Below, piece after piece: positions 3,935 through 35,583 of a stretch of 64,000 bases of DNA. The notes under the pieces are model-generated. The model did not search any database. It saw only the letters and a list, made by a program, of their open reading frames with translations, and was not told where the DNA came from. Location: positions 2,108,001 to 2,172,000 of the forward strand of contig NZ_CP073315.1 of assembly GCF_018140925.1 (NCBI RefSeq), read 5' to 3'. Within the stretch, counting starts at the first letter, position 1, and every line of letters begins with the position of its first letter. Both the position numbers and the translations under genes were made by a program. This DNA is from Psychrobacillus sp. INOP01. Its GTDB lineage: Bacteria > Bacillota > Bacilli > Bacillales_A > Planococcaceae.

Positions 3935-3955
3935 TTACTTATGATACGGTTCACC
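3935..3955 (-). repeat. True rlmH 3' end, inner copy of the att-like direct repeat
   Basis: The last codons of rlmH read GGTGAACCGTATCATAAGTAA. Near-identical copies occur at 1-19 and 217-237. In SCC biology this is the junction that keeps rlmH intact, because the element restores the gene end on insertion. Confidence 0.7.
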
Positions 3956-4414
3956 CTTCATAATTCGGAATGCACGGTAGATCTGTTCTACCAACACTAG
4001 CTTCATTAACTGATGAGGCAAGGTCATTTTACTAAAGGACAATTTTTCATCGGCACGTTTCATCACATCTTCGTGTAAACCAAGAGATCCACCGATAACA
4101 AATGCAATTTTACTTCTGCCATACGTCATAAGGGATTCAATATCACCAGCTAGCTGCTCCGATGTTTTCATCTTTCCCTCTATTGCAAGAGCAATAACAT
4201 ATGTGTCCGCTCCTATTTTCGCTAGGATTCGGTCACTTTCTTTTTTCTTAACGATTTCCATATCAGCTTCACTTAGATTTTCCGGGGCTTTTTCGTCAGC
4301 CACTTCTACTAAATCTATTTTGGCATATGCTCCTAGCCGCTTTGTGTACTCTTCTATTCCCATTTTTAAGTATTTTTCTTTTAATTTCCCTACTGAAATA
4401 ATTTGTATATTCAC
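3935..4414 (-). CDS. rlmH: 23S rRNA (pseudouridine-1915-N3)-methyltransferase RlmH
   Basis: A 159-residue protein, the usual length of this SPOUT-class family. It methylates pseudouridine 1915 in helix 69 of 23S rRNA on the assembled ribosome, using S-adenosylmethionine. The FVIGGSLGL loop (about residues 105-113) is the trefoil-knot cofactor site, and the C-terminal [16 protein letters not shown] is the conserved family ending. It is the same protein as YydA of B. subtilis and OrfX of staphylococci. Its 3' end is the classic integration target of SCC elements and is repeated twice further left in this window. DnaA boxes lie immediately upstream. Confidence 0.97.
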
Positions 4415-4419
4415 AGGTT

Positions 4420-4831
4420 ATCCACCTTTACATTTCGTTTACAAACACGTTATACACATAGCTTATCCACATATCCACAACACTTATCTACATCTTGTGT
4501 TTCAATTTTCATTAGCCACAATATATAATGCAGAGCTTTCACAGTAAGAACAAACTGTGGATAACTTTTCTTCGTTTTTTAATTCCTCTAACATTGGAAA
4601 TGTTTTCTGTTCCGCTACAAACATGTCTAATGCGTGATTTATATGGTTTTCACAACTGAATATTCTCATTTTTATCCTCCCTTTTGTTGTCTGAATACTT
4701 TTAATAGTTATACACAAATCATCCATTGTTATCCACAACCTATTTTACCAAATGAAAAACGAGTAGGAAAGACAAGCTTTTCTTTTCCTACTCGCTGTGT
4801 AAATCTTTTTTACATTGTTAAGTTATCCACA
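4420..4831. promoter_or_regulatory. DnaA-box cluster outside oriC
   Basis: Nine DnaA-box-like 9-mers lie within 412 bp. Six match TTATNCACA exactly: 4450-4458, 4463-4471, 4556-4564 (reverse), 4708-4716, 4729-4737 and 4823-4831. Three have one mismatch: 4420-4428, 4471-4479 and 4484-4492. The density rivals that of oriC 31 kb away. One perfect box lies inside the small CxxH/CxxC gene, the rest in the spacers around it. DnaA-box clusters that bind DnaA and delay initiation are known in B. subtilis; this one probably has that titration role. Confidence 0.75.
4502..4669 (-). CDS. Small CxxH/CxxC zinc-finger-like protein
   Basis: A 55-residue protein with an N-terminal Cys-Glu-Asn-His pair (residues 6-9) and a C-terminal Cys-Ser-Tyr-Cys pair (about 40-43), spacing that suggests one bound metal ion. 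It belongs to the short CxxH/CxxC family that sits between rlmH and an HtrA-type protease in many Bacillales; its function is not known. The start at 4667-4669 is preceded by AAAGGGAGGA, while the longer in-frame extension has no such site. The gene lies inside the DnaA-box cluster, and a perfect box falls within its coding sequence, so part of its conservation may reflect that cluster. Confidence 0.8.
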   Translation of the reverse strand: MRIFSCENHINHALDMFVAEQKTFPMLEELKNEEKLSTVCSYCESSALYIVANEN

Positions 4832-4834
4832 TGT

Positions 4835-6067
4835 TTATAATTCTGTTGATTCCTTTAAAAGGAGTGTTAATTCGACTATCTCTCCTTGTCTATACACTTT
4901 CACTTTTAGTTCGTCCCCAGTTTCTTTTTCGTTATATAGGTGTTTACGTAATTCAATAGTATTTTCAACTTTTTCTCCATCCATTTCTACAATGACATCA
5001 TATGATTTCATCCCCGCCAATGCAGCTGGAGTTCCTTCCACTACTTCGTCAACTACTACACCAGTTGTAACTTCCTCAGGTAGTTTTAATGTTTCTTTTT
5101 GGTGAAATGCTGGTACATTCGTCAAATCAATTAGTGTGATTCCCATGGATGGACGATTAACTTTTCCGTTTTGCTCTAAATCCTCTATGATTGGAATAGC
5201 TGTATTAACTGGAATTGCAAGACCTATTCCTTCTACTGTAGACTCAGAAATCTTCATCGAGTTTATACCTATAAGCTGTCCCGCTAAGTTGATCAATGCA
5301 CCACCGCTGTTTCCAGGGTTAATCGCTGCATCTGTTTGTAAAACCTCTGACTGCCAATCCTCTAAACCATCTCCGTTTAGATCAACTGGTACTGCACGGT
5401 CTTTACCAGATACAACTCCAGTTGTAACAGAGCCATAAAAATCAAGTCCTAAAGGATTACCGATAGCAATAACTGTTTCCCCTTGCTTTAATACATCTGA
5501 GTCGCCAAATTCTATAACTGCTTCTACACCAGTGTCGTCAATTGCAAGAACCGCTAAGTCTGACCAAATATCTCCCCCTACAATACTTGCTTCCACTTTA
5601 GATCCGTCAGCTAATGTTACTTCCACTGATTTTGCATCTTCAATAACATGATAATTTGTAATAACATAGGCTTTACCATTTTCTTTCTTATAAATAACAC
5701 CTGATCCTGTGCCAGCATCCTGAGTATCTTCCGATTGACTCCAGAAATTTGTGACGGATTGAATATTTGTTATTCCTACAACTGCACTTGAAGCTTTTTC
5801 TACAGCATCGGTTACATCTGTAGTAACATCTACTGAAAGCTGTTGGGTTTGTTGTGTTGTTTCGCTCGATTTTGTTTCACTGTCCGATGGTAGGTTGGTT
5901 ACTACAGAAGGTATTAAAAACCAGACGAGTAATGCACCAACTAATACACCTGCAAGTCCACTAAAGAAATAGCCGGCTATGCCTCGTTTTTTTCCATTTC
6001 TTTTTTTCTGTTCTATCGGCGGTTGTTCTTGTGGTAATTGCGGTCCATATGGGTTATTTGTATCCAT
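4835..6067 (-). CDS. htrC: Membrane-anchored HtrA/DegP-like serine protease
   Basis: A 410-residue trypsin-like protease. A Pro/Gln-rich cytosolic tail with a basic stretch (residues 21-28) is followed by one membrane helix (about 29-52), a Ser/Thr/Gln-rich linker, the protease domain and a C-terminal PDZ domain (about 320-405). The catalytic triad is visible as His140 (ITNYHVIED), Asp170 (SDLAVL) and Ser254 (PGNSGGAL). It should degrade or refold damaged proteins outside the membrane. The position next to walJ is that of B. subtilis htrC (yyxA). I prefer the start at 6065-6067, with GAGGAAGAG upstream; 38 extra residues are possible in frame but have no good ribosome-binding site. Confidence 0.92.
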   Translation of the reverse strand: MDTNNPYGPQLPQEQPPIEQKKRNGKKRGIAGYFFSGLAGVLVGALLVWFLIPSVVTNLPSDSETKSSETTQQTQQLSVDVTTDVTDAVEKASSAVVGITNIQSVTNFWSQSEDTQDAGTGSGVIYKKENGKAYVITNYHVIEDAKSVEVTLADGSKVEASIVGGDIWSDLAVLAIDDTGVEAVIEFGDSDVLKQGETVIAIGNPLGLDFYGSVTTGVVSGKDRAVPVDLNGDGLEDWQSEVLQTDAAINPGNSGGALINLAGQLIGINSMKISESTVEGIGLAIPVNTAIPIIEDLEQNGKVNRPSMGITLIDLTNVPAFHQKETLKLPEEVTTGVVVDEVVEGTPAALAGMKSYDVIVEMDGEKVENTIELRKHLYNEKETGDELKVKVYRQGEIVELTLLLKESTEL

Positions 6068-6231
6068 CTTTCTCTTCCTCTCTGTTTCTAATATGTCTGT
6101 ATTAACAATGTACCCATTCCAGATTAAAATAAGATGAAAATTACTTAAAAAATAAATAAAAGTTCCAAATACTACATTCATAGTATTTGAAACTTCGATT
6201 AAAAGAGAAGAAAGTATATGGTTTTTCCTAT

Positions 6232-35288: not shown

Positions 35289-35583
35289 TTATCCACAATT
35301 ATGAATGAATCTATTTTTGTACCTGTATATAAAAAAATCCCTCGAAAAATTATCCACAATACTTATAAACATATTCTTCACATATTATTCTATTGTGGAC
35401 AACTTATATTGTTAATAATTAAATTAATGTGGATAACTCTTAAATTTCTTGTAATTCCAATGTTTTTTTGGTACGATATTTGTGTTTTACTTTTTCAATA
35501 ATATTTCACTCTTTTTTATTATCCACAGTTGTTAGTAATCTGTGGATAAATTTATTCCCATGACTTTATAAAGGTTATCCACA
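35289..35583. other. oriC: oriC left part: DnaA-box array upstream of dnaA
   Basis: Perfect TTATCCACA boxes lie at 35289-35297, 35350-35358, 35519-35527 and 35575-35583; perfect reverse copies at 35428-35436 and 35541-35549; and a variant (TTGTCCACA, reverse) at 35394-35402. The region is AT-rich and gene-free between rpmH and dnaA. Gene strands diverge from here on both sides, as expected of the replication origin. It is the first half of the two-part Bacillus-type origin. Confidence 0.9.

Follow-up and report, generated by a model that had tools for sequence, protein, structure and literature searches.

A DnaA-box cluster near oriC of Psychrobacillus, conserved within its family and retained where the overlapping small gene has been lost

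Introduction

What does selection preserve in a 412-bp stretch of the Psychrobacillus sp. INOP01 chromosome (Planococcaceae) that carries a dense group of DnaA boxes around one tiny gene: the small protein or the DNA itself? The original prediction, made from the sequence alone, had described this group as comparable to oriC, had placed it about 31 kb away from it, and had suggested that the conservation of the CxxH/CxxC gene beside rlmH may partly reflect the boxes. Here, we followed up these claims in the window, that is, the whole stretch of 64,000 nucleotides that was analysed (contig NZ_CP073315.1, positions 2,108,001 to 2,172,000 of the forward strand), and in relatives; coordinates refer to the window unless a contig or locus is named.

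In Bacillus subtilis, whose DnaA-box consensus is given as TTATNCACA, region 8 among those that DnaA binds most strongly in vitro is described as 'upstream of yydA; downstream of yyzF'; in the account of that region it has 7 sites, spans yyzF and shows an apparent Kd of 0.16 µM for ATP-DnaA and 0.33 for ADP-DnaA (PMC4447404). According to two reviews (PMC5295017, PMC13220808), deletion of six non-origin clusters leads to early initiation, and one of these reviews also plays down the link between clusters and initiation. We infer that the yyzF-yydA cluster was among the six deleted. The original study of the six-cluster deletion is reportedly that of Okumura in 2012.

Results

The recount of positions 4420-4831 agreed with the prediction of six perfect and three one-mismatch boxes, where 'perfect' stands for the TTATNCACA consensus and four of the six are TTATCCACA. 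Three boxes on the plus strand lie upstream of the small gene: A (4823..4831) and B1 (4729..4737), both exact TTATCCACA, and B2 (4708..4716), which reads TTATACACA, an exact TTATNCACA match, and is 21 bp from B1. Box C (4556..4564, minus strand, exact TTATCCACA) is the perfect box that had been predicted inside the coding sequence, where it spells the codons TTA-TCC-ACA (L-S-T). Two more plus-strand boxes, D1 (4463..4471, exact TTATCCACA) and D2 (4450..4458, TTATACACA, 13 bp from D1), lie downstream, D1 between the stop codon of the small gene and rlmH. The one-mismatch boxes, also on the plus strand, are found at 4471 (ATATCCACA), 4484 (TTATCTACA) and 4512 (TTAGCCACA), within 4471..4520; just beyond the 412 bp there are further ones at the rlmH start (4407..4426, plus strand; ATATTCACA at 4407 and TTATCCACC at 4418) and at 4832.

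Such a number of consensus boxes, as in the non-oriC clusters of B. subtilis, is well above chance. In 2000 dinucleotide shuffles of 4420-4831, exact boxes averaged 0.05 and never exceeded 2 (6 observed), and exact and one-mismatch boxes together averaged 1.1 with a maximum of 7 (9 observed); the genome-wide rate of 254 exact TTATNCACA in 4.30 Mb gives 0.024 expected per 412 bp. The genome was covered by a pattern search and by selected stretches, with the positions of the 254 matches listed in part. It contains 80 TTATCCACA, and at least three of these fall within 500 bp at four places: the array upstream of dnaA, the 4420-4831 locus and two others. Six exact boxes are likewise found in the dnaA-upstream array (35289-35583), so that 'comparable to oriC' is fair for this half of oriC; the array lies 30.5 kb from the cluster, close to the distance predicted. 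The equal number of exact boxes could point to a second, cryptic or former replication origin, a reading to which we give almost no credence, because PMC4447404 places the B. subtilis counterpart among the DnaA regions, separately from oriC.

The small gene (4502..4669, minus strand; 55 aa, yyzF-like) passes the curated cut-off of the CxxH/CxxC protein family TIGR04129 (66.8 bits, cut-off 35), and its product is 96% identical in P. psychrodurans. It is followed by rlmH (3935..4414, minus strand; NF000985, 260.4 bits, cut-off 172), encoding a 23S rRNA methyltransferase, and preceded by an HtrA-like serine protease gene (4835..6181, minus strand), whose best NCBIfam matches are HtrA families, all under their curated cut-offs; these coordinates are those of the longest open reading frame, and the real start is probably further in. 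We take yydA to be rlmH and yyzF to be the CxxH gene, and by the two family assignments the cluster sits in the same genomic place as the known B. subtilis one.

The CxxH gene was matched in 140/151 genomes of the own family, in 188/200 genomes of an order draw and in 189/299 of a class draw. We compared the HtrA-to-rlmH interval in 232 loci: 150 from the own family (19 genera in 149 genomes, with genome G098, listed at 8% contamination, contributing L103 as a second contig) and 82 from 25 other families of Bacilli. The class-level loci numbered 86, comprising the 26 best matches of the search and 60 hand-picked among the matches listed; four loci of family f22 in which the profile found no CxxH gene (L202, L203, L204, L206) were excluded from the 232, and 14 named loci lacking a group code were excluded from all counts. 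At least three exact boxes were present in 145 of the 150 own-family loci, and in only 24 of the 82 loci of other families. With the reversed pattern as control no locus reached three boxes, and over the 232 loci the box density was 7.4/kb in the interval, against 0.02/kb for the reversed pattern and 0.02 and 0.03/kb in the flanks. Conservation of the boxes in relatives, one of the checks that the original prediction had proposed, was strongly borne out within the own family. No exact box was found in the loci of families f3 (18 loci), f13, f22, f30 and f36, where the CxxH gene is present, which shows that the gene can exist without the cluster.

The arrangement of the boxes was examined in 142 own-family loci (18 genera) that could be anchored at the residues LST or IST before CxxC; the other 8 of the 150 family loci have different residues at this place and were excluded. 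Taking the coding box as 0 and reading in the sense of the gene, the common layout has boxes at about -269, -173 and -152 (minus), 0 (plus), and +93 and +106 (minus), and that of the window is -267, -173, -152, 0, +93 and +106. Since standard deviations of spacing taken from narrow position windows are partly circular, nearest-box distances, measured window-free, were used instead. An upstream box is present in 140/142 loci, and for 122 of these the nearest one is 151 or 152 bp away from the coding site (152 bp in 97, 151 bp in 25); it is 172 bp away in 9 loci where the inner box is inexact, and 140 bp away in 4. A downstream box is present in 137/142, and in 134 of these the nearest is at 92-94 or 106 bp (93 bp in 80, 106 in 28, 92 in 23, 94 in 3). 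By position, B1 lies at -175 to -170 in 135/142 loci, B2 150-152 bp from the coding box in 128/142, D1 at +91 to +95 in 106/142 and D2 at +104 to +108 in 102/142; box A, at -275 to -250 in 120/142, is less fixed, as its spacing to B1 varies. Spacing and orientation are thus near-fixed in most of the 18 genera, with g6 and g16 deviating, while many of the bases between the boxes vary widely; common descent explains part of this constancy. Over all families, the own one included, a minus box at +90 to +96 is found in at least one locus in 11/26, and in the other families the upstream boxes are at different places.

Helical phasing of box A was considered and is not claimed: the A-B1 distances fall into several groups, and the Rayleigh test was significant at all seven periods (9.5 to 13) because one mode dominates. 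Spacing shifts by whole turns were likewise set aside, as the two cases near whole turns (L261, -10 bp; L151, -30 bp) are too few.

The distances to the neighbouring genes are looser than those within the cluster: 138-394 bp from the coding box to rlmH and 262-1331 bp to the htrA end. This bears on the possibility that the cluster is first of all an operator, through which DnaA represses the CxxH-rlmH operon and so ties ribosome modification or the small protein to the replication state. Such a role has a precedent in B. subtilis, where the yyzF-yydD operon is apparently repressed directly by DnaA according to the relevant passage of PMC4447404, and yyzF-yydABCD is among the sets that PMC8203912 lists as directly regulated. 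An operator, however, would not readily explain why the internal spacing is near-fixed while the distance to rlmH varies, nor why families f29 and f38 retain the +93/+94 box with rlmH 377 or 1102 bp off or not found in the fetched stretch. A sigma-70 scan of the coding strand found no consensus promoter, which is weak evidence either way. Operator control as the primary role seems possible but rather unlikely, and the near-fixed inner and looser outer distances lead us to favour an element that would work on its own.

In 119 of the 142 anchored loci, the codons before CxxC are exactly TTATCCACA; the other 23 have TTATCAACA (15 loci) or other one-mismatch forms (8 loci). Compared with the codon usage of the neighbouring genes rlmH and htrA (80,372 codons from the same loci), the spelling is strongly biased: serine is TCC in 89% (12% expected), leucine TTA in 97% (40%) and threonine ACA in 100% (56%), the three being jointly expected in 2.6%, and the lysine before them is AAG in 99% (27%); as the loci are related, these counts are not independent trials. 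With genera weighted equally, the mean information per base is 1.9 bits in the coding box, against 1.13 for the remaining coding sequence. Beyond the own family, the coding box is exact in f14 (7/7 loci), LST occurs with an inexact box in f8 (1/2 loci), f29 (two mismatches, 2/3 loci) and f38 (one mismatch), and the remaining families have other residues there, with or without the cluster. That the cluster accounts for part of the gene's conservation is supported for the LST stretch, which in the own family and f14 follows the box far beyond codon usage, and fails for the gene as a whole, since families devoid of the cluster also conserve the CxxH and CxxC motifs and f11, f16, f27, f33, f37 and f44 have the cluster with other residues at LST. 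One could argue the reverse, namely that selection on the protein keeps the LST codons, with the DnaA-box match arising as a by-product, and the persistence of LST in f29 and f38 despite their mismatched boxes would fit this; the synonymous choices described above already disfavour it.

Two other features of the small gene are recorded here. Its 5' part (4600-4669) also has strongly biased codons (isoleucine ATA 95%, 12% expected; serine AGC 76%, 14% expected) and contains neither an exact nor a one-mismatch box; a CATATA stretch in this part is kept in locus L142, from the window's own genus, and not in the gene-less loci of genus g3. At or just past the stop codon, a CACAATATGTAGAT-like stretch (about 4484-4503), which overlaps a one-mismatch box, is apparently more conserved than the nearby exact boxes, in an ungapped comparison in which offsets blur the boxes, and is kept in the gene-less g3 genomes too.

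Genomes that have lost the gene separate the protein from the boxes. Twelve own-family genomes had no CxxH match and a readable rlmH locus; among them are G002 and G039, the two in which the cluster was looked at out of 110 class-level genomes without a CxxH match. Genome G053 (87% complete) matched neither CxxH nor RlmH and was not used. All 12 gene-less genomes have three to six exact boxes upstream of rlmH, and in each of them one box, on the plus strand, matches the coding box in its order and position. As ten of them belong to one genus, g3, the losses amount to about three events, and three is also the fewest state changes on a FastTree tree of RlmH and HtrA. A move of the gene to another place is unsupported, TIGR04129 being without a match at E 0.001 in those genomes.

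The remnants show what has been kept. L142 has a visibly decayed CxxH copy, and between it and the window 52/54 box bases are identical, against 275/406 outside the boxes. In eight g3 genomes nothing recognisable remains of the coding sequence, and 41/45 box columns are invariant compared with 218/416 others (Fisher p 1.4e-7, with columns that are not independent); in each of the eight, as in L142, B2 lies 152 bp from the former coding box. L151, of genus g8, keeps box order and orientation with 122 bp between these two boxes. In L261 (genome G176), at 142 bp, the CxxH frame is open and both metal motifs, CxxH and CxxC, are gone, while KLST and the box are retained; this gene is possibly in decay. 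The box positions of L263 are shifted by 54 bp, as its rlmH start was set 18 codons too early.

With the gene lost and the boxes kept, it is the boxes themselves that selection seems to preserve in these relatives. The survival of the plus-sense box in the 12 gene-less genomes, together with its retention in G176, makes the by-product reading of the LST codons very improbable. The g3 genomes without the gene are closely related (the nearest distances listed run from 0.006 to 0.126), and functionless boxes might have been kept through shared descent alone; this is extremely improbable given the excess of invariant box columns within these same genomes and much the same layout across most of the 18 genera. 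On these comparisons, conservation of the boxes in the own family appears best explained by a function as DnaA boxes and not by the small protein. An operator would be compatible with this result, as the cluster could still control rlmH after loss of CxxH, and rlmH follows it immediately in all 12 gene-less genomes; the conservation facts alone consequently do not separate sequestration of DnaA from an operator role.

Two further arrays were seen in the genome. The first, a second rigid array at C1:2650765-2651135 (L265:2266-2636), has boxes at 0 (+), 79 (-) and 90 (+), repeated 272 bp on, and its two halves are alike mainly in the box parts; a long direct repeat as its cause was rejected, as there is none at 30 nt and at 12 nt mainly the box parts repeat. 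The first element was matched in 10/19 genomes of the genus and in 12/101 genomes of a family draw that overlaps the genus set. Of 13 distinct loci (two of the 15 listed being repeats), 8 show the exact 0/79/90 triplet at the matched element, 3 show it exactly in both halves, and 7 have a recognised SASP or HutH gene in the vicinity; none of the top 20 B. subtilis DnaA regions, as given in the corresponding part of PMC4447404, is at SASP or HutH genes. At the other array (C1:1487604-1487762; L264:2105-2263), which is about 656 kb from oriC, five exact boxes closely follow a gcp-like gene. Its place resembles that of region 4 of B. subtilis, described in PMC4447404 as downstream of gcp and ydiF; here, however, the ydiF-like gene is about 1.25 kb further, with two other open reading frames between (gcp-like and ydiF-like are names given by reading the frames, not by family search).

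Discussion

The loss of the gene about three times, with the boxes staying in place, points to the DNA element as the selected unit. We favour, with moderate confidence and by analogy, the explanation that this is an oriC-proximal DnaA-box cluster selected as DNA, the counterpart of B. subtilis yyzF-yydA, which would restrain initiation, and that it probably also represses the CxxH-rlmH operon. DnaA would bind the six exact boxes together with the weaker intervening ones, giving a complex of near-fixed layout: three boxes ahead of the gene, one of opposite orientation within it and two downstream. Its main selected role would be exerted on DnaA itself: molecules held near the origin would leave initiation restrained, and repression of the operon by the same complex would likely be a second output. 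DnaA binding, known at the counterpart in B. subtilis, is predicted at 4420-4831, and the link to initiation control comes from B. subtilis work through the reviews cited above (PMC5295017, PMC13220808). We infer that the B. subtilis findings hold in Psychrobacillus and that DnaA binding is why the boxes are kept. Against this explanation speak the fixed spacing and orientation, which simple sequestration would not need, and the other families, with three exact boxes in only 24 of 82 loci and in none of the 18 of f3. The 23 inexact coding boxes, the deviating genera g6 and g16 and the crowding of ten gene-less genomes into g3 also count against it.

Because plain sequestration needs no fixed layout, a bolder reading suggests itself, which we put forward tentatively: the own-family cluster may be a rigid, shaped DnaA nucleoprotein device instead of a loose sink, in which one box overlaps a protein gene and would, as DNA, dictate three of its residues, and which has persisted through about three losses of that gene. 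Non-oriC clusters are known from B. subtilis, and whether they are loose sinks, operators or shaped complexes is the question at stake. If true, a second fixed-layout array in the same genome would turn rigid devices into a general class of elements that bind the initiator in this group. The coding box is, in addition, a well-marked case of a protein motif seemingly set by a binding site.

The kind of element is already known, since the same place is a high-affinity DnaA region in B. subtilis. In the open-licence literature we found nothing on this locus besides the B. subtilis papers, which is no proof of novelty; new are the conservation in the own family, the near-fixed layout, the coding box kept as DNA and the boxes outlasting the gene. 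Loci of family f14 share the coding box with the window (7/7) and differ in having their upstream boxes placed elsewhere. Escherichia coli datA, a likeness drawn from its description and not from its sequence, is also a DnaA-box locus outside the origin that holds down initiation; it differs in acting together with IHF and in stimulating the hydrolysis of ATP by DnaA, as described in the datA passage of PMC5295017, and IHF is absent from B. subtilis according to the corresponding statement in PMC13220808. The closest likeness is to B. subtilis region 8, and it stands on gene places and the published description, not on the sequence of that region: in both, the CxxH gene is followed by rlmH/yydA and the boxes span the small gene, with 7 sites in B. 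subtilis and 6 exact boxes in Psychrobacillus. The cluster at 4420-4831 is the counterpart, in another family, of this known B. subtilis region.
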